A DNA stretch of 64,000 nt from Aquisphaera giovannonii (lineage in GTDB: Bacteria > Planctomycetota > Planctomycetia > Isosphaerales > Isosphaeraceae). Shown in pieces: positions 18,784 to 53,728 of this stretch; position 1 is the first letter of the stretch, and each line of letters starts with the position of its first letter. Position numbers and translations under genes: made by a program. Location of the stretch: contig NZ_CP042997.1 in assembly GCF_008087625.1 (NCBI RefSeq), positions 5,084,001 to 5,148,000 on the forward strand. Direction: 5' to 3'. The notes beneath the pieces are model-generated. The model was not told where the DNA came from, made no database searches, and saw only the letters and a program-made list of their open reading frames with translations.

Positions 18784-21354
18784 ATGGATGGCGCGGAGCA
18801 TGACCCCGTCGCGATGATGGCCGAGCTGGCGCGGAGCATGAAGCCGGAGCGGCGGGCGAGGTTCCTGGACGCGGCCTGCGGCGGCAACCCGGCGATGCGG
18901 GCGGCGGTCGAGGCCCGGCTCGCGAGCGCACTTCCCATGCCCGAGCCCCCGCTCCCGGAGGACGCGACGATCGCGGACGGCATGTTCGAGCCGAAACGGC
19001 CCGACGCCGGGCCGGCCCCGGCGCCGGAGGAGCGGGCGGAGGGCCGGGACGAGCCGGCCGCGGAGGCCGACTTCCTGGACAGCCTGGCCCTCGAGGCCGT
19101 CTCCGAACCACCGGGCGAGGCGGGCGAGGCGTCACAGATCCGCGAGTCGGACGACGCGGCGGCGGACGCCTCCGCCCCCACGATCCTGGCCTACTGCGAG
19201 GCCCGCAAGCTCGACGCCGAGGACCGGCTGCGGCTGGTGGAGAGGCTCTGCCGGGCGATCGACGAGGACCATCGCCGGGGGCGGATCCGCGGCGGCCTGG
19301 CGCCGGGCGAGGTCCGCATCGCCGCCGGCGGCACGCCCCGGCTCCTGGCGAAGGCGGGGGGCGAGGGCGGGGCCGATGCCGGCGACCTCCGATACGCGAG
19401 CCCCGAGCAGGTCCTCGGCGAGCCCGCGACGACGGCGACGGACGTCTACGGGCTGGGCATGGTGCTCTACGAGGTGCTCACCGGGCGGTATCCGTATCGG
19501 CAGGCGAAGGAGGGCGACGCGGCGTCGATCGCCCGGGCCGTCTCCGAGGAGTCCCCCGAGCGGCCGAGCCGCGCGGCCCCCCGGTCGATCGCCCGGCACC
19601 TGGACGACGACCTGGACATGGTCGTGCTGCACGCCCTCCAGAAGGAGCCGGGGCACCGCTACGGCACGGCCGGGCCGCTCGCCGACGACATCGACCGGTT
19701 CCTCCGCGGCCGCCCGGTGACGGCCGTGCCCGAGGGCCGGCTCGCCCGCCTGAAGCGGCTCGCCCGCAGGCATCCGGCGGCCGTCGTCCTGGGCGGGCTG
19801 GGCACCCTGGCGGTCCTCCTGGGGCTGGCCGCGGCGCTCGTCGCGCTGGCCCGGTCGCAGCGGGCCCAGGGGCGGTCCGAGACGTCCTACCGGACGGCCC
19901 GGCAGGCGATCGAGGAGCAGTTCGCACGGATCGAGGACGAGCCGGCGCTCGACGTGCCCGAGCTCCGCCCCGCGCGGTTCGCCCTGCTCGGCTCGCTGCT
20001 GCACTACTACGAGTCGGCGGCCGCCCGGGGCGAGGACGCCCGCGATCGACGCGGCGACGCGCAGGCGGCGGAGGACGCGGCCCGGGCCCGGATGAGGCTC
20101 GCGCAGATCCACCGGCTGCTCGGCGTGGGCGACCTGGCGGCCTGGCAGTACGAGCAGGCCCTGGACGCCTACGAGGGCCTCATCGCCGCGAGGCCCGGGC
20201 ACTCCGAGTTCCAGGAGGACCTGATCCGGATCCTCACCGACCTGGGCGGGCTGCTGATCCCCCGCCGGGACCGGCACGAGCAGGCCCGCCAGGTGCTGGA
20301 GCGGGCGAGGTCCATGCTCGAGGGCGAATCCGCGCCGAAGCTCGTCGGCAAGGCCCGGTCCCGCGCGCTGGGCGAGGCCCTCGCGGCGATCGCGACGCTG
20401 GAGGGCGCGGAGGACCGGCTCGGACCGGCGCGGGCCGCCTGGCGGAGGGCGATCGAGATCGAGACCGCATTGACCGCGGCGAAGCCCCCCCGGGTGGACG
20501 ACCTCGCCGCCCTCGCGTCCGCCCAGGTGGGGCTCGGGCGCTCGCTCGCCGCCTCGCCGGAGACGGCGGCCGACGGGATCGCGGCCATCCGCAAGGGGCT
20601 GGAAATCCGCGAGGACATCGTGAAGACCAACCCGGCGCGCGTCGACCAGATCGAGCAGCTCGCCATCGAGCAGAGCGGCCTGGCGACGCTCCTGCAGTCG
20701 GCGGGGCAGGTCGACCCGGCCATCGAGGCGGCCACGCAGGCGGCCGCCACGTTCGAACGGCTCGACCGCCGGTTCCCCGAGAACACGCCGTACCAGTCGG
20801 GGCTGTACCTCGTCCACGACCTGCTCACCCGCCTCCAGAACAAGAAGGGGGAGATCGCCGCGGCCCTCGGGCACGCCAACCGGGCCCGCGCCGTGCTCGA
20901 GTCGCTCGCCGCCCGCAACAAGGGGGAGCGGATGTTCGCGATCGACCTCTCGCGCTCTCATAACTTCATCGGCCGCCTCCTCCGCCAGGAGGGCAAGTAC
21001 CCGGAGGCCCTGGCGGCCTTCCAGCGCGCGGTGGACGTGCTCGAGAGCCTGAAGTCGCTCGACCCGGCGAACAGCTACCAGCTCGGCGTGAACCTCGCCC
21101 TCTGCGTCCCGCTGATCGGCGTCCCCGAGGGCGGCCACACCGAGATGCTCGACGACGACCCCAAGCTCTCCCCGGCCGACCGACTCCGCCGCAAGCTCTA
21201 CGGCGAGCGAGCGATCGCCGCCCTCGAGAAGGCCGCCGAAGGGAAGGGAGCCGACATCGAAGCATTAAACAAGGACCCGGACCTGGACGCGATCCGCGGA
21301 AGGCCGGCGTTCCAGGCGATCGTCAAGAAGCTGGAGGATCCACGGAAGGGATGA
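18784..21354 (+). CDS. Truncated pseudokinase with membrane helix and TPR domain
   Basis: The 856-residue protein looks like a planctomycete Ser/Thr kinase with the catalytic parts missing. A helical region (AYCEARKLDAEDRLRLVERL) aligns with the C-lobe helix before the catalytic loop, but HRDLKPxN is replaced by RIRGGLAPGEVRI and there is no DFG. The glycine loop, the VAIK lysine and the whole N-lobe are absent. The activation-segment end is intact (YASPEQVLGEPATTATDVYGLGMVLYE, about residue 202). One membrane helix follows at about 330-352, then TPR-like repeats to the end. The ATG at 18784 has GGAG about 11 bases upstream. It probably works as a scaffold, not an enzyme. Kinase ancestry is clear; the role is not. 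Confidence 0.8.
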   Translation: MDGAEHDPVAMMAELARSMKPERRARFLDAACGGNPAMRAAVEARLASALPMPEPPLPEDATIADGMFEPKRPDAGPAPAPEERAEGRDEPAAEADFLDSLALEAVSEPPGEAGEASQIRESDDAAADASAPTILAYCEARKLDAEDRLRLVERLCRAIDEDHRRGRIRGGLAPGEVRIAAGGTPRLLAKAGGEGGADAGDLRYASPEQVLGEPATTATDVYGLGMVLYEVLTGRYPYRQAKEGDAASIARAVSEESPERPSRAAPRSIARHLDDDLDMVVLHALQKEPGHRYGTAGPLADDIDRFLRGRPVTAVPEGRLARLKRLARRHPAAVVLGGLGTLAVLLGLAAALVALARSQRAQGRSETSYRTARQAIEEQFARIEDEPALDVPELRPARFALLGSLLHYYESAAARGEDARDRRGDAQAAEDAARARMRLAQIHRLLGVGDLAAWQYEQALDAYEGLIAARPGHSEFQEDLIRILTDLGGLLIPRRDRHEQARQVLERARSMLEGESAPKLVGKARSRALGEALAAIATLEGAEDRLGPARAAWRRAIEIETALTAAKPPRVDDLAALASAQVGLGRSLAASPETAADGIAAIRKGLEIREDIVKTNPARVDQIEQLAIEQSGLATLLQSAGQVDPAIEAATQAAATFERLDRRFPENTPYQSGLYLVHDLLTRLQNKKGEIAAALGHANRARAVLESLAARNKGERMFAIDLSRSHNFIGRLLRQEGKYPEALAAFQRAVDVLESLKSLDPANSYQLGVNLALCVPLIGVPEGGHTEMLDDDPKLSPADRLRRKLYGERAIAALEKAAEGKGADIEALNKDPDLDAIRGRPAFQAIVKKLEDPRKG

Positions 21355-21368
21355 GGAAAGGGAACGGG

Positions 21369-22041
21369 CAAGAAATGCGAAACAACCAAATGCATTGAAC
21401 CACGGAAAACACGGAAAGCACGGAAGGGGATGAGGAGTAAAGGGGAGGAGAGGAGAGGGGAAAGAGCCTCCAGGAAGAGTCAGGAAATTTGGGGGAGAGC
21501 TGGGAGGAGCGGATGCCAGGTACTAAGGTTTAGGTAGGGGGTGACCGATGAGGGTCGAGGCACGGTGAGGGCCTGGCGATGGGTGGGCTGATCTTTGAGG
21601 AGGAGACGTTTCGGATCCGAGGGGCGGTGTTCGAGGTCTATCGCGAGATGGGGAGCGGGTATGCGGAGCCGGTGTATCAGGAATGCCTGAGGATGGAATT
21701 GACCTCCCAGAAGATCCCGTTCATCGCCCAGCCGGAGCTGCGGATTCGCTACAAGGGCGAGGTCCTGGCCCAGTTCTACAAGCCGGATTTTATCTGCTAC
21801 GACCACATCGTCATCGAGTTGAAGGCCGCCCGGGCCCTCGCGCCGGAACACGAGGCGCAACTCATGAACTACCTGAAGGCCACCGGCATGAAGCTCGGCC
21901 TCCTCATCAACTTCGGCGCCCACCCCAGGGCCGAGATCAAACGCATCGCACATTGATCCCCGCCGACCCAACCCTACATCCCCTCTTCCTCCCCTTCCGT
22001 GCTTTCCGTGGTTCAATGCATTCCGTATTTCGCATTTCTTG
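21369..22041. mobile_element. GxxExxY gene cassette bounded by terminal inverted repeats
   Basis: A 62-base left arm (21369-21430) and a 52-base right arm (21990-22041) are inverted copies. Both run CAAGAAATGCGAAA, a 6-7 base variable spot, then ATGCATTGAACCACGGAAA and GCACGGAAGGGGA; the left arm has one extra 9-base ACGGAAAAC-type unit. The only gene between them is the GxxExxY gene. The right arm ends 6 bases short of the amidohydrolase stop codon. A solo copy of the arm lies at 23405-23443. Mobility is inferred. Confidence 0.7.
21579..21956 (+). CDS. GxxExxY protein (PD-(D/E)XK nuclease-like fold)
   Basis: The 125-residue protein has the defining motif G27-Y-A-E30-P-V-Y33 and a PD-(D/E)XK-like core: D70 in KPDFICYD and E80-L-K82 in IVIELKA. 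Families with this signature (GxxExxY, DUF-level annotation) are frequent in planctomycetes and are often surrounded by ACCACGGA-type repeats. Length is normal. It sits alone inside the inverted repeats at 21369-22041, with more than 150 bases of repeat DNA on the 5' side. Nuclease activity has not been shown for the family to my knowledge; the fold-based inference is moderate. The start ATG follows GAGGGCCTGGCG. Confidence 0.85.
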   Translation: MGGLIFEEETFRIRGAVFEVYREMGSGYAEPVYQECLRMELTSQKIPFIAQPELRIRYKGEVLAQFYKPDFICYDHIVIELKAARALAPEHEAQLMNYLKATGMKLGLLINFGAHPRAEIKRIAH

Positions 22042-22047
22042 AATTTT

Positions 22048-23352
22048 CTAGTCTTTGTCCCTTCCGTGGATCGTCCCGGCCTTCATCACCAGTCGGACGC
22101 GGCGGAGGGCCTTGATGTCGCAGGTCGGGTCGCCGTCGACGGCGACGAGGTCGGCCAGGAGGCCGTTCCGGATCGAGCCCAGTCGGTGGTCGAGGCGCAG
22201 GGCCTTCGCGGCGTCGGAGGTCGCGGCGCGGAGGGATTCGGCGGGGGTCATGCCGAGGGCGGTGAGCAGCTCCAGCTCGCGGGCGCCGTCGCCGTGGGAA
22301 AACACGCCGATGTCGCTGCCGTTGACGATCGTCACGCCGGCCTCGCGGGCCTGCGTGAGCAGCCTGCGGAGCCTGGCCAGGCCATCGGGCTCCGGCGTCT
22401 CGTTCAGGGTCCAGCCCTTGTACCGGGTGGCGCCGGCCTCGGCGGCGGCGAGCGTGGGGCAGAGGGCGACCTTGCGCTCGGCCATCAGGCGGAAGACCTC
22501 GGGGTCGCCGCCGTAGCCGTGCTCGATCGTCGCCACGCCGGCCATGGCCGCCCGGCGCATGCCCTCGCGGGACGAGGCATGCGCGGCGACGAGCCGGCCC
22601 TGGGAGCGGGCCGTCTCGACGATGAGCGAGAGCTCCTCGGCGCTGAACGAGGGCAAGACCTCCTTGCCGCCCATCGCCGCGTCCGCATACACCTTGATCC
22701 AGTCCGCCCCCTTGCCGATCTGGTCGCGGACGACCCGGATCAGGGCATCATGCCCGTCGGCCTCCTCCGCCCCCTGGGGGATCTCCCACTCCGGGGCGAA
22801 CCCCTTCGGCGCGTACGAGCCCGTCGCCACGATCGCGCGGGTCGTGACGAGCATCCGCGGCCCCGGCACGATCCCCTGCGCCACCGCGTCGCGGAGCCCG
22901 ACGTCCGCGTACCCCGCGCCCTCGGTGCCCAGGTCGCGGATCGTGGTGAAGCCCGAGAGCAGGTCGCTCCTCAGGTGGTTCGTCGCCCGGCAGACGCGCA
23001 AGGCCAGCGGCTCCTTGAGCACCTGGTCATTCCAGAGCGTCTCGTTGTACGGGTGGAGCAGCACGTGCGTATGCGCGTCGATGAGCCCGGGGATCACCGT
23101 CGCCCCGGGCAGCTCCACCACCTTCGCCCCCTCCGGCACCTTCACCTCGCCCGCCGGCCCCGCCGCCTCGATGACCTCCCCCCGGACCACCACGACCCAG
23201 CCCTCGACCGCCCCCTTCCCGAGCCCGTCGAAGACCCGCGCGGGCCGGAGCACGACCGCCGGCTCCTCCGCCCGGGCGGGGAGCCCACCGATCACCAGGC
23301 ACGCCGCGATCAACGAACCACAGCAACCCATCCGAATGATCTTCATGGCCAT
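22048..23352 (-). CDS. Secreted metal-dependent amidohydrolase
   Basis: The 434-residue protein has a signal peptide (MKIIRMGCCGSLIAACLVIGG) and the metal-binding series of the amidohydrolase superfamily: H94-T-H96 in DAHTHV, the lysine in DWIKVYADA, histidines in VAAHAS and TIEHGYGG, and the aspartate in IVNGSDIG. The overall order matches imidazolonepropionase-like/Xaa-Pro dipeptidase-type amidohydrolases, which hydrolyse amide bonds in cyclic or peptide substrates. Substrate cannot be deduced. The stop codon lies just outside the right arm of the GxxExxY cassette. Upstream is a solo cassette arm and then the PVC-type gene. Confidence 0.87.
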   Translation of the reverse strand: MAMKIIRMGCCGSLIAACLVIGGLPARAEEPAVVLRPARVFDGLGKGAVEGWVVVVRGEVIEAAGPAGEVKVPEGAKVVELPGATVIPGLIDAHTHVLLHPYNETLWNDQVLKEPLALRVCRATNHLRSDLLSGFTTIRDLGTEGAGYADVGLRDAVAQGIVPGPRMLVTTRAIVATGSYAPKGFAPEWEIPQGAEEADGHDALIRVVRDQIGKGADWIKVYADAAMGGKEVLPSFSAEELSLIVETARSQGRLVAAHASSREGMRRAAMAGVATIEHGYGGDPEVFRLMAERKVALCPTLAAAEAGATRYKGWTLNETPEPDGLARLRRLLTQAREAGVTIVNGSDIGVFSHGDGARELELLTALGMTPAESLRAATSDAAKALRLDHRLGSIRNGLLADLVAVDGDPTCDIKALRRVRLVMKAGTIHGRDKD

Positions 23353-23404: not shown

Positions 23405-23443
23405 TCCCCTTCCGTGCCTTTCCGTGTTTTCCGTGGTTCAATG
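23405..23443. repeat. Solo copy of the GxxExxY cassette arm
   Basis: This 39-base stretch, read on the minus strand, begins CATTGAACCACGGAAAACAC and ends GCACGGAAGGGGA. It matches the left arm at 21391-21430 with a single inserted G. No second arm and no gene accompany it, so it may be a scar or an independent copy. It lies in the 100-base gap between the amidohydrolase and the PVC-type gene. Confidence 0.75.
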
Positions 23444-39562: not shown

Positions 39563-40565
39563 GGGCCGGCGCAGGCCCCCAACCATGGGCCGGCGAGGCG
39601 GCCCGATACCCCCGTCGTCCCCCGCCCGGTGGCTTTGGTCGTCGCCCGCACGACCGAACCCACCACGCCGCTTGTCCAATCCCCGCATTAACTTACATCC
39701 ACAGACCCGATCCCGGCCGCGGCCATCATTCCTGCATCTCGTTGCTCCACGCCCTCGATCGTTGCCGAGGCACGACGGCCCCGGCGACGCCGCGTTCCCT
39801 CCTAGCGAACCGTATTCCATTCGTGTCTTGTGTGCCATCCGTGCCATCCGTGCCATCTCGAGGCGGATCCTCCGTGGCTTTGCTCGTCATCCGCAAACGC
39901 CGCGACGAAATTGACGCTTCCTATTTCCAAATAATGACTTGCGTACTATTCCGCCCCGCTTCGTCGGGAGTTTCCCGGTTCCCGGGGCCCCGACCTGGGA
40001 CCTCGGCGAGGCCTCCGGGTGGCTCGGCCATTGCCTCTCCGACCCGGGCCGTAGAGTCAAAGCATGAGTGGTGGCGCGGCGGGCCCGCCACGCCCGGACC
40101 GTCGCGGGCCCGTGCCGACCGACGGGGCCGGCCGGGGCCCGGGTCGTCCGCCTCGAGATGATGCCCCCCGCCGCAACCGGCCCCCGGTCCGTCCGCCGGC
40201 CCGCGCCCACCCCGCGCGGGCCGGCTTACTGCTCCTCGACCCCCGAATCCGGATTGTCAAAGAGCGGCGCCGGGGCCCGCGTCCGGCACGCCCCCCTCGT
40301 CCCACGATCCGCGCCGCACCGCCGCCGGTTTCGGCGTGACGTCCGGCCCCGATGATCGGCCGAACCACGAGGGCCGGTCCGCCCGCCCGGGCGGCGGCCG
40401 CTGGCCGGCCGGAGGTGCGGAACGGACCGCGGCCCCGCTATTTATGACTAGCGCTATATTTTGCGTTTTCCGACGGTCCGCCTCCCGGATTTGCAAACCG
40501 ATCTTTTGCGTCCGCGACCCGATCGACGTACCCTGCGAACGTACGGGCCCGGGAGCGAGCGAACG
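39563..40565. other. Long gap with no supported gene
   Basis: About 1 kb without a credible gene. Overlapping frames on both strands at 39.5-40.5 kb have shadow composition (runs of Arg, Pro, Gly) and no recognisable domain. A tandem GTGCCATCC stretch (about 39838-39868) is present, of the kind common in planctomycete intergenic DNA. AT-rich patches lie at about 39915-39950 and 40435-40520. Confidence 0.5.
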
Positions 40566-51620: not shown

Positions 51621-52130
51621 ATGATGTCCCGATCCGAGACCCGCAACAATCGCCCCGAGCCCGAGCCCCTGGTGGAGACGGATTCCCGGTTCCCCTCCGG
51701 GCCCTGGTGCGGGTTCTTCCTGATGCCGCACCAGCCGGGCAGGCACATGATGGAGCTCCAGCTCACCTTCCGCCAGGGGGTGATGACGGGCGAGGGCCGC
51801 GACATGATCGGCCCGTTCCTGATCAAGGGCCGCTACCAGGTCGAGGACGGCCAGTGCTGGTGGTCCAAGCGGTACGTCGGCAAGCACGACGTCCACTACC
51901 GCGGCTACAACGAGGGCAAGGGCATCTGGGGCCTCTGGGAGATCCCGCCGTCCTACAAGGGGGGCTTCCACATCTGGCCCGAGGCCATGGGCGACCCGAC
52001 CAAGCAGAAGCTCGCGGAGTCGATCGAGGAGCCCCAGGACGCGCCGCCCGTCGAGGCGCCCGCGGAGGAGCTCGTCCCCGCCGGCGCCGGGGCCGATGCC
52101 GGCTTCGACGTGAGCGTGGCCGCCTTCTAA
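51621..52130 (+). CDS. Hypothetical protein, 169 residues, planctomycete-type
   Basis: The product begins MMSRSETRNNRPEPEPLVET and has a central conserved-looking region rich in aromatics: GPWCGFFLMPHQPGRHMMEL, QLTFRQGVMTGEGRDMIGPF, CWWSKRYVGKHDVHYRGYNE, GIWGLWEIPPSYKGGFHIWP. The pattern suggests a beta-sandwich or barrel with a Gly-rich loop. The C-terminal 45 residues are acidic and Pro/Ala-rich, ending FDVSVAAF. GAGG sits 6-7 bases before the tandem ATGs. I recognise no named family. A MITE-like element starts 7 bases after its stop. Confidence 0.7.
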   Translation: MMSRSETRNNRPEPEPLVETDSRFPSGPWCGFFLMPHQPGRHMMELQLTFRQGVMTGEGRDMIGPFLIKGRYQVEDGQCWWSKRYVGKHDVHYRGYNEGKGIWGLWEIPPSYKGGFHIWPEAMGDPTKQKLAESIEEPQDAPPVEAPAEELVPAGAGADAGFDVSVAAF

Positions 52131-52137
52131 TGCGGGA

Positions 52138-52400
52138 TTAACCACAGAGGCACAGAGGACACTGAGAAGACCATACCGAGAAGAGACAGACCTCAGTAAG
52201 GAGTGGAGAGAGAGGATGCGGCAAATCTGGCCGGCGCCAGGCATCTCATTGCCTTGAGGGCGGCCTGATGCTGCATTCTGAAGCAGAATATGGGCGCGAC
52301 AGCCCACCTCATGCTTTCAAATGCATTCTCTTTTCCTTACCTGACTTTCGCTGACTTCTCCGCATGGTCTTCTCTGTGTCCTCTGTGCCTCCGTGGTTAA
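52138..52400. mobile_element. 263-bp MITE-like element with 37-bp terminal inverted repeats
   Basis: Left arm 52138-52174 and right arm 52364-52400 match at 35 of 37 positions in inverse: TTAACCAC(A/G)GAGGCACAGA then GGACAC(T/A)GAGAAGACCAT. The interior of about 190 bases has no gene. The outermost base motif at each end is TTAA. The right arm contains the stop codon of the Ser/Thr kinase gene. The core CCACAGAGGCACAGAGG is a familiar intergenic repeat in several bacterial groups; transposition is inferred. Confidence 0.75.
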
Positions 52401-53728
52401 TTCCCCCCCAGCAGGCCGGCCCAGCGGCGGCGGGGCGGGGGGGGGCCGCCGCCGATCCAGCGGCGGAGGTCGGCGGCGAGGGCGCGGCAGGAGGGGTAGC
52501 GCCGCTCCGGGCGCTTGGCCATGGCCTTCTGGCAGATGGAGGCGAGCGCCCGGGGGACCTCCGGCGCCACGGTCCGGGCCGACGGCGGCTGGTGATGGAT
52601 GGCGTGGAAGAGGACGTAGGTGGGCGGCCCGTGGAACGGGGGCCGGCCGCAGAGGAGCTCGTAGAGGACCGCCCCCAGGCTGTACTGGTCGCTGGCGGGC
52701 AGCGCGCCGTCCTGGCCCCCGCGGGCCTGCTCGGGGGCGAGGTACGCCGGGGTGCCCAGGATCCGGCCCGGCGGCAGAGGGACCTCGCCGGATTCGGGGT
52801 GGTAGGCGATCCCGAAGTCCATGAGGTAGACCTGCCCCTCGCGGTCGATCCGGACGTTCGCCGGCTTCACGTCGCGGTGGACGATCCCCCGGTCGTGGGC
52901 GTGCGCGAGCGCCTCGGCGAGCTCGGCGACGACCGCCGCGGCGGTGGCGAAGGGGACCGGGCCGGCGGCCATCCGCTCGGCCAGGCTCTGGCCCTCGACG
53001 AGGGCCATCGCGATGTAGGGCCGATCGCCCTCCCGGCCGGCCTCGTAGATCGGCACGATCCGGGGGTGGCGGAGCCTGGCGAGGACCCTCGCCTCGGCCA
53101 GGAACCGGTCGACGCCTCGGGAGCTCGGAGCGACCTCCTCGCGCGGCAGCTTGAGCGCGACCTGGCGGCGGAGCAGGGGGTCGAAGGCGCGATGGACCGT
53201 CGCGTGATGGCCCTCGCCGAGGACCTCGATCAGCTCGAACCGGCCGAGCCGCGGGACCGCGGCGATCGCCCCGCTCCCGTCCCGCCCCGGATCGGGCCCG
53301 CGCCCCGGATCGCGGTCGTCGCGGCCGAGCGGGCCGATGTAGACCTCGCCGCTCTCCTGGAGCTCCAGGGCGAGCCCGTGCCCGTGCCCAAGCCCAGGCC
53401 CAGGTCCCGGGGTCCAGGATTCCTCGGCCCTGGCGCCGAAGGCGAAGGCCAGGAACTCGCCGCTGTCGGGCCCGGGCGACGCGGGCGCCGGCCGGGCCCC
53501 GGCCGCGTCCCCCGCCGGATCGGTCGCGGCGCCCCGCCGGGCGACCGGCGACCAGCGCCGGGGCAGGGGGCCGAGCACCGTCGTCCAGCCCGAGTCCGAG
53601 GCCCCGGCGCCCGCCGCGGGGAGCTTCGTCAGGCATCGCGGGCAGCGGAAGATCCGGCCCAGCGGATCCTCCCCGAGGACCGTGGTCCGCCCGCACATGC
53701 GATTCGGGCATTGCACCATCGCGGCCAT
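52397..53728 (-). CDS. Ser/Thr protein kinase with N-terminal zinc ribbon-like motif
   Basis: The 443-residue protein opens with a possible zinc site, C7-PNRM-C12 and C29-PR-C32, then an Ala/Pro/Gly-rich linker. The kinase domain (about 165-430) is complete: glycine loop LGEGHHATVHRA, VAIK-type VALKLP, catalytic loop VHRDVKPANVRI, MDFGIAY and GTPAYLAPEQA. It has no membrane helix or C-terminal sensor, unlike many planctomycete kinases. The ATG at 53728 has GGAG 8 bases upstream. The last residues GGN and the stop codon come from the arm of the MITE-like element, so the original C-terminus may have been longer. Confidence 0.92.
   Translation of the reverse strand: MAAMVQCPNRMCGRTTVLGEDPLGRIFRCPRCLTKLPAAGAGASDSGWTTVLGPLPRRWSPVARRGAATDPAGDAAGARPAPASPGPDSGEFLAFAFGARAEESWTPGPGPGLGHGHGLALELQESGEVYIGPLGRDDRDPGRGPDPGRDGSGAIAAVPRLGRFELIEVLGEGHHATVHRAFDPLLRRQVALKLPREEVAPSSRGVDRFLAEARVLARLRHPRIVPIYEAGREGDRPYIAMALVEGQSLAERMAAGPVPFATAAAVVAELAEALAHAHDRGIVHRDVKPANVRIDREGQVYLMDFGIAYHPESGEVPLPPGRILGTPAYLAPEQARGGQDGALPASDQYSLGAVLYELLCGRPPFHGPPTYVLFHAIHHQPPSARTVAPEVPRALASICQKAMAKRPERRYPSCRALAADLRRWIGGGPPPPRRRWAGLLGGN

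Follow-up and report, generated by a model that had tools for sequence, protein, structure and literature searches.

A GxxExxY gene of Aquisphaera giovannonii between inverted iteron arms, and a possible REPIN/RAYT-like repeat system built around a predicted nuclease

The GxxExxY gene of Aquisphaera giovannonii described here is enclosed by two inverted arms of short iterons, and analysis confirmed that the cassette with its inverted ends is real, general and far wider than first described. The account that we favour, with modest confidence, is that of a selfish repeat system resembling REPIN/RAYT and centred on GxxExxY as a PD-(D/E)XK nuclease. The cassette would be the gene-bearing member of a repeat family whose unit is a pair of inverted arms, each with about 23–26 nt of iterons and roughly 20 nt of sequence outside them. 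In the majority of copies the arms enclose just a short spacer, and one copy per arm class encloses the gene for the predicted nuclease. Each GxxExxY protein would recognise its own arm class, probably on an extruded hairpin or cruciform, or on single-stranded arms during replication. It would then cut or process the arms, and this processing would keep gene-less pairs alike and let them multiply. GxxExxY would take the role that RAYT has for REPINs, with an unrelated enzyme. The use of DNA rather than RNA as substrate, its binding and cutting, the route of copying and the spread of the elements are all steps that we infer.

The window, meaning the whole stretch of 64,000 nt that was analysed (contig NZ_CP042997.1, positions 5,084,001 to 5,148,000, forward strand), holds the following features.

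21333–21351, plus strand: left outer inverted motif, GGAGGATCCACGGAAGGGA; 19 nt, 95% complementary to 22058–22076
21369–21430, plus strand: left class-A arm, AT-rich in its outer part and with three 9-nt iterons, CACGGAAAA/CACGGAAAG/CACGGAA
21579–21956, plus strand: GxxExxY gene, 125 aa; predicted Cas4/lambda-exonuclease-like PD-(D/E)XK nuclease, with G..E..Y, D, ExK and Q...Y conserved
21990–22041, minus strand: right arm, class A, inverted, with two iterons
22058–22076, minus strand: right outer inverted motif, partner of GGAGGATCCACGGAAGGGA
23405–23443, minus strand: solo class-A arm with three iterons; matches the left arm exactly over 26 nt
39838–39853, minus strand: short CATCCGTGCCATCCGTG arm with two units; class-C arms occupy the corresponding intergenic region in the sister species (G002)
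52127–52404, strand. (unstranded): class-B (CACAGAGG) gene-less arm pair; other breakpoint of an inversion relative to G002

Most of the original prediction about the layout of the cassette held. The inverted ends (21389–21429 and 21982–22022) are 41 nt long and 85% complementary, and each arm has an outer AT-rich stretch followed by CACGGAAnn iterons with a 9-nt period. The predicted difference of one unit is present, with three such units in the left arm and two in the right, and beyond the iterons both arms have the same 14 bases, CAAGAAATGCGAAA. The solo arm was likewise found where it had been placed, some 1.4 kb away. GxxExxY is the sole gene within the arms, as had been claimed, and it matches both family profiles (TIGR04256, E 2.3e-41; PF13366, E 2.2e-41); the cassette encodes no known transposase. 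The earlier description had missed the outer inverted motif, which stands outside both arms. Its left copy overlaps the 3′-terminal codons of the ORF upstream, and similar motifs, TCCACGGA, flank many gene-less pairs externally.

A BLAST search with the window cassette gave 85 matches across the A. giovannonii genome. A strict search for the three-unit arm finds it 46 times there and the reversed pattern not once, which places the window arm beyond chance; a wider pattern detected 163 arm triplets, again against 0 in its reversed control. Chance or low complexity was rejected as a source of the arms, given reversed-pattern controls of 0 to 8 matches altogether and 5 reversed arms against 151. 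Four GxxExxY genes occur in the genome, all four between inverted arms, and the arm class differs at each.

Class A: window gene, unit CACGGAA
Class B: locus L011, unit CACAGAG
Class C: locus L009, unit CACGGAT with a 9-nt period
Class D: locus L012, unit CACGGAT with a 10-nt period

The arms are 43 nt long at 93% in L012 and 40 nt at 98% in L011, and L009 sits amid a cluster of pairs. Among the 100 triplets listed out of the 163, 36 were of class A, 47 of B, 11 of C and 5 of D, with 1 mixed; the mixed one apart, every listed triplet belongs to one of the four gene-associated classes. The sister species carries two GxxExxY genes, orthologues of the B and D loci, and its 58 arms divide into 38 of B, 14 of C, 5 of D and 1 mixed. 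As that genome has no A gene and no A arm (0/58), the class A gene and its arms are jointly absent. Class C arms persist there without their gene, including at the orthologous site, and this can be read either as decay after gene loss or as independence of arm and gene.

The arms of A. giovannonii are mostly without a gene (163 triplets against 4 genes), an outcome that the original prediction had itself named as speaking against it, and the transposon reading is upheld only in part, a plain transposon with terminal inverted repeats being unsupported. The gene-less arms usually form convergent pairs about 50–260 nt apart; matches to the window arm are for the greater part gene-less convergent pairs with 150–260 nt between them. 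Such pairs often have the outer sequence AATACAAATACATTTAACC in common, and their interiors are unrelated, save for one weak match and a few very short ones. Unrelated interiors are odd for recent copies and count against the favoured account. The pairs were also considered as relics of GxxExxY cassettes, and this was rejected when tblastn found 0 matches in 18 gene-less interiors. The two arms of one element resemble each other more closely than they do the arms of other elements (35.3 vs. 27.0; 0/5,000 permutations; p <= 0.0002; n = 16), an effect that is absent from the interiors of these pairs. The same concordance was seen in genome G039 (29.1 vs. 17.7; n = 19) and in genome G035 (n = 18).

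All of 52 gene-less pairs for which neighbours were assessed are extragenic, with 21 between convergent genes, 30 between tandem genes and 1 between divergent genes, an avoidance of divergent promoters; the gene strands were called by a simple codon-position rule. Four gene-less examples fold into near-perfect hairpins (z -13.8 to -19.7), and arms directly adjoin stop codons. In G035, 67 arm matches are listed, mostly near-identical gene-less hairpins, several of them nested or stacked. Of the two GxxExxY genes in that genome, one has the same arms as these hairpins (55 nt, 95%); between the hairpin copies, the arms are shared and the centre is partly similar. At three places in that genome (L176, L180 and L182), one arm is stacked on one or both sides of the hairpin (++ / --), as if stems lengthen through duplication. 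In G039, elements are nested in elements of a different arm class (L369 and L377); in two elements there, an outer CACAGAG pair surrounds arms whose class is that of gene L067. An Rfam scan of the repeats in the loci examined assigned no family; a mir-999 match to one gene-less hairpin (L371:528-621; 58.1 against a cut-off of 58) was taken as a chance hairpin match.

The association of arms and gene extends well outside this genus, in keeping with what had been predicted of GxxExxY genes elsewhere. Across many phyla, 170 of 198 loci have arms by either of two measures, a strong inverted repeat or a correctly directed three-unit arm; 28 have them by neither, a point against the favoured account. 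An inverted-repeat score of at least 15 between the sequences upstream and downstream of the gene was obtained at 4/4 loci of A. giovannonii, at 23/29 loci of relatives (two of which, L050 and L070, duplicate A. giovannonii loci and are left out of the 198-locus count), and at 76/89 of the phylum sample, in which 60 loci were hand-picked, non-randomly, from the listed, higher-scoring part of the phylum search. The cross-phylum set gave 49/76, or 50/76 in the run with the within-locus control, where the coordinates differed slightly. It began as 80 named loci, 4 of them at contig ends and unscored, from Bacteroidota, Chloroflexota, Acidobacteriota, Cyanobacteria, Alphaproteobacteria, Dojkabacteria, Methanosarcinales and others. 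Controls were low throughout, with 8/961 windows elsewhere in the same loci scoring as inverted repeats and 1/29 ParE toxin genes from the same 40 genomes scoring at least 15 (29 scored of 30 loci). Both arms have at least three units in the stated direction at 72/198 loci and in the opposite direction at 11, where the wrong-way arms probably stem from neighbouring pairs; reversed sequence gave 3 three-unit arms upstream and 1 downstream. One further record, L387 (NZ_OY725952.1), is labelled a plasmid and carries thrA, radA and other chromosomal-looking genes; it is probably a mislabelled chromosomal contig.

The family is patchy, with 139 of the phylum's 294 genomes carrying it, and arms tend to go with it. 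Among 40 genomes, arms were found in 17 of the 21 with GxxExxY (847 matches) against 6 of the 19 without it (42 matches), with a Fisher p of 0.0034 and a rank-test p of 1.2e-4; here G020, which has only a below-cut-off match, is counted as gene-less. Some zeros in gene-bearing genomes are to be expected, since the search pattern misses CGC-type arms. The 6 gene-less genomes with arms are open to the same two readings, arms decaying once the gene is lost or arms independent of it, and to that extent count against the favoured account.

Further support comes from the iteron itself. Aligned by eye with the outermost unit first, it reads CRCRRAN (R = A/G), with about three units per arm repeating every 8–12 nt and TTAAC or TTCAC usually preceding the first. 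Among 122 loci whose arms are canonical, G stands at the seventh position in 100 and some other base in 22. When this state (G or not) was mapped onto a phylogeny of the proteins from these 122 loci, a tree of few columns and many open forks, it required 3 changes, against a mean of 20.5 after shuffling and with 0/500 shuffles as low. The tree takes in loci where the iterons of both arms are canonical, and omits 30 inverted-repeat loci with other units as well as L050 and L070. Paralogues within one genome track the protein clade and not the genome, as with B against A, C and D in A. giovannonii, and this disfavours base composition as the cause of the pattern.

The enclosed protein belongs clearly to its family. 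It scores above the curated cut-offs of both the PF13366 profile (140.8 bits vs. 35) and the TIGR04256 profile (141.3 vs. 22), and these are its only matches in Pfam and NCBIfam, respectively, at E <= 0.001. A structure model of high confidence (pLDDT 94.8, pTM 0.87) has as its top solved fold SSO0001 (4ic1; Foldseek E 6.9e-5, VIA Z 10.2, 4.3 A over 100 residues), which we take to be a Cas4 protein. Lambda-type exonucleases are also among the best solved folds and Holliday junction resolvases rank lower, in a ranking that re-compares Foldseek's own matches and covers the folds on that list. Conserved positions include G, G, E and Y in the motif that names the family, alongside D58, E68 and Q82, with K70 and Y86 nearly so (L043 numbering); the residues follow the order G..E, D, ExK, Q...Y. 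On this modelling, GxxExxY is predicted to be a Cas4/lambda-exonuclease-like PD-(D/E)XK nuclease. A profile search of PDB sequences gave no match at E <= 1. In two orthologous pairs between A. giovannonii and G002, dN is 0.12–0.14 and dS 0.6–0.9 (dN/dS about 0.15–0.2), and this low ratio indicates that the protein is kept by purifying selection. An origin as a phage gene was also considered and set aside, as tblastn with one GxxExxY protein gave 0 matches in 50,697 phage records; a scan of viral contigs for relatives found none at the sensitivity used. The original suggestion that the product acts on the ends is in harmony with the covariation and the Cas4-like fold, while cleavage as such is something that we infer.

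Evidence on mobility is mixed. In Bacteroides finegoldii, a 478-nt cassette whose arms begin one base past the radA stop codon lies between radA and a gene for an FAD-dependent protein. In Parabacteroides distasonis 13 nt separate these two genes, and a different ORF occupies the site in Phocaeicola massiliensis. At this one Bacteroidales site, arm, gene and arm are either all there or all missing, as expected of the single unit first proposed, and the arms form the ends of the element; because the genomes are of different genera, neither the direction of the change nor the exact junction is fixed. A search for an empty site had also been suggested for the window cassette, and G002 does not supply a simple one, its region being inverted with breakpoints at repeats and its contig ending near the site. 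The inversion spans about 30 kb (window 21356–52127; L163/L164), with one breakpoint at the GxxExxY element and the other at the class-B element; a single case of breakpoints at repeat elements is only suggestive. The L009 site of G002 has no GxxExxY; it carries class-C arms, and within the class-C element lies an insert resembling a group II intron (L198:2290-2965; RF00029, 48 bits).

Genome G010 has six copies (L200–L205) of a unit of about 600 bp made up of arms and GxxExxY, several with disrupted reading frames. Outside the arms, five of these copies have imperfect terminal repeats, GGCTCnTC...AATCnGTGGGTG, and 8-bp or near 8-bp AT-rich duplications that belong to these outer ends border three. 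One copy is itself interrupted by about 2.2 kb. Imperfect ends with 8-bp AT-rich duplications resemble those of ISL3-type elements; the unit may be a non-autonomous element of that kind, and another transposase probably moved it. This is the clearest copying that was found, in the sole multi-copy gene-bearing unit with sharp ends, and it was probably carried out by an ISL3-like element acting in trans, which counts against the favoured account. The G010 family was therefore rejected as proof of self-mobility, its mobile unit ending outside the arms. Target duplications at the arms themselves, also named at the outset as something to look for, were not seen in the copies read.

Arms of this general kind enclose other genes as well. 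In a case that parallels GxxExxY with other arms, genes of the PF05635 family (23S rRNA IVS / four-helix bundle) in relatives (L217–L246) lie between inverted arms of tandem heptamers (AGCGGTC, AGTTTTC, GTAGGCA and others) in 19 of the 28 places scored out of 35. At L134:3228-4053, an iteron pair surrounds a GIY-YIG-like gene (MUG113/T5orf172; MUG113 E 9.3e-13) and a second ORF with a weak match to an HNH-associated repeat. At L078:686-1217, a pair located beside a GxxExxY gene encloses an ORF of 154 aa that reads like a PD-(D/E)XK nuclease and has no Pfam family at E <= 0.1. With other nuclease-like ORFs and PF05635 also found within arms, inverted arms may be a broader hallmark, which weighs against the favoured account.

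Other explanations bear on these same observations. One that we consider rather doubtful, though worth keeping in view, is that inverted iteron pairs are a platform of the host, colonised by small nuclease genes that home in the manner of intron homing endonucleases. The nuclease would cut gene-less pairs of its own class, and repair from a gene-bearing pair would follow, copying the gene in or evening out both arms; arm class would serve as a specificity tag, and GxxExxY, the GIY-YIG/MUG113 gene with its HNH-associated repeat and the PD-(D/E)XK-like ORF would share one type of platform. Homing fits the class-C site, where both sister genomes have arms and one has the gene, the presence of other nuclease-like genes in arms, and the likeness maintained between the arms of a pair. 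An unlikely alternative, passive cargo, has arms and GxxExxY as an inert or self-protecting hairpin cassette moved in trans by ordinary transposases, with a protein inactive on the arms. It draws on the six G010 copies, their outer repeats and duplications, and on the lack of any target duplication at the arms themselves. It leaves unexplained, however, why arm sequence tracks the protein tree, why the arm classes of A. giovannonii are those of its genes and why class A is co-absent from G002; moreover, the ISL3-like outer ends are confined to G010 among the loci read in detail.

It is also improbable, in our estimation, that the gene-less pairs sit at the 3′ ends of genes as terminators working in both directions or as hairpins for RNA processing, with a domesticated GxxExxY processing them and selection, not selfish spread, keeping them. 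The orientation of neighbouring genes, with 1 divergent case in 52, would suit such a host function, as would the near-perfect hairpins and the arms that adjoin stop codons. Yet the family is patchy in the phylum and present or absent at one and the same site, G039 has nested elements of differing classes, and the bursts in G035 are recent. Least probable, and by our reckoning very much so, is that the arms form an RNA stem cut by RNase III, with the insert removed from transcripts as in the intervening sequences (IVS) of 23S rRNA. The layout of a small ORF within a long stem is the same, the IVS protein family PF05635 does lie between inverted arms at 19/28 loci tested, and the Coxiella IVS is described as having a terminal stem of 28 bp that RNase III cuts (PMC4990558). 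Against this, the GxxExxY cassettes read lie between protein genes, no rRNA match was found in the window, the iterons have spacers of 1–5 nt as opposed to the tandem heptamers of PF05635, and covariation of arm and protein is not predicted.

The REPIN/RAYT-like account would have consequences for more than one genome. GxxExxY is annotated in many bacterial phyla and in archaea, and a cognate, countable DNA signal for each gene makes it a testable system. If true, the account would explain a large class of intergenic repeats of the CACAGAG/CACGGAT type across phyla, and self-maintaining repeat populations would be a general outcome rather than the quirk of one transposase family. In the literature searched, which included few subscription journals, no role was described for GxxExxY of PF13366/TIGR04256, and neither its repeat arms nor a link of repeat and nuclease was found; the association of GxxExxY with arms looks undescribed there.

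Several known systems invite comparison. Cas4 (SSO0001) and lambda-type exonucleases have the nearest solved folds to the modelled protein, and the order G..E, D, ExK, Q...Y is conserved in GxxExxY, which is nevertheless much shorter and without a PDB sequence match at the threshold given above. MITEs and IS elements likewise have short inverted ends, intergenic locations, many gene-less copies and a gene in the larger copy. GxxExxY elements differ from them in having no known transposase and no target duplication seen at the arms, and from MITEs in that the gene-less copies of A. giovannonii share their ends and have unrelated interiors. The 23S rRNA IVS with its S23 protein (PF05635) resembles the cassette as a small ORF within a long inverted stem, and is described as patchy and as a selfish element (PMC4990558); the cassette protein, however, is of PF13366, the arms are others and the site is outside rRNA.

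The closest likeness is to REPIN-RAYT. As set out in two papers, REPINs are inverted repeat doublets with a less conserved spacer, extragenic and hairpin-forming; there is one repeat class per enzyme gene, the gene adjoins repeats, most repeats are gene-less, and the repeats co-evolve with the enzyme (PMC3116915, PMC8266576). GxxExxY arms resemble REPIN-RAYT, or REPtrons with TnpA-REP, in being hairpin-forming extragenic doublets with a variable spacer, in their four classes for four GxxExxY genes, in the genes that adjoin arms, in the preponderance of gene-less arms and in the covariation of arms with the protein. They differ in that the arms are iterons with a period of 8–10 nt enclosing the gene symmetrically, and in that the predicted enzyme is a Cas4-like PD-(D/E)XK nuclease and not an HUH/Y1 tyrosine protein. 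Should the favoured account hold, the REPIN-RAYT arrangement would have been invented a second time, around an unrelated enzyme.
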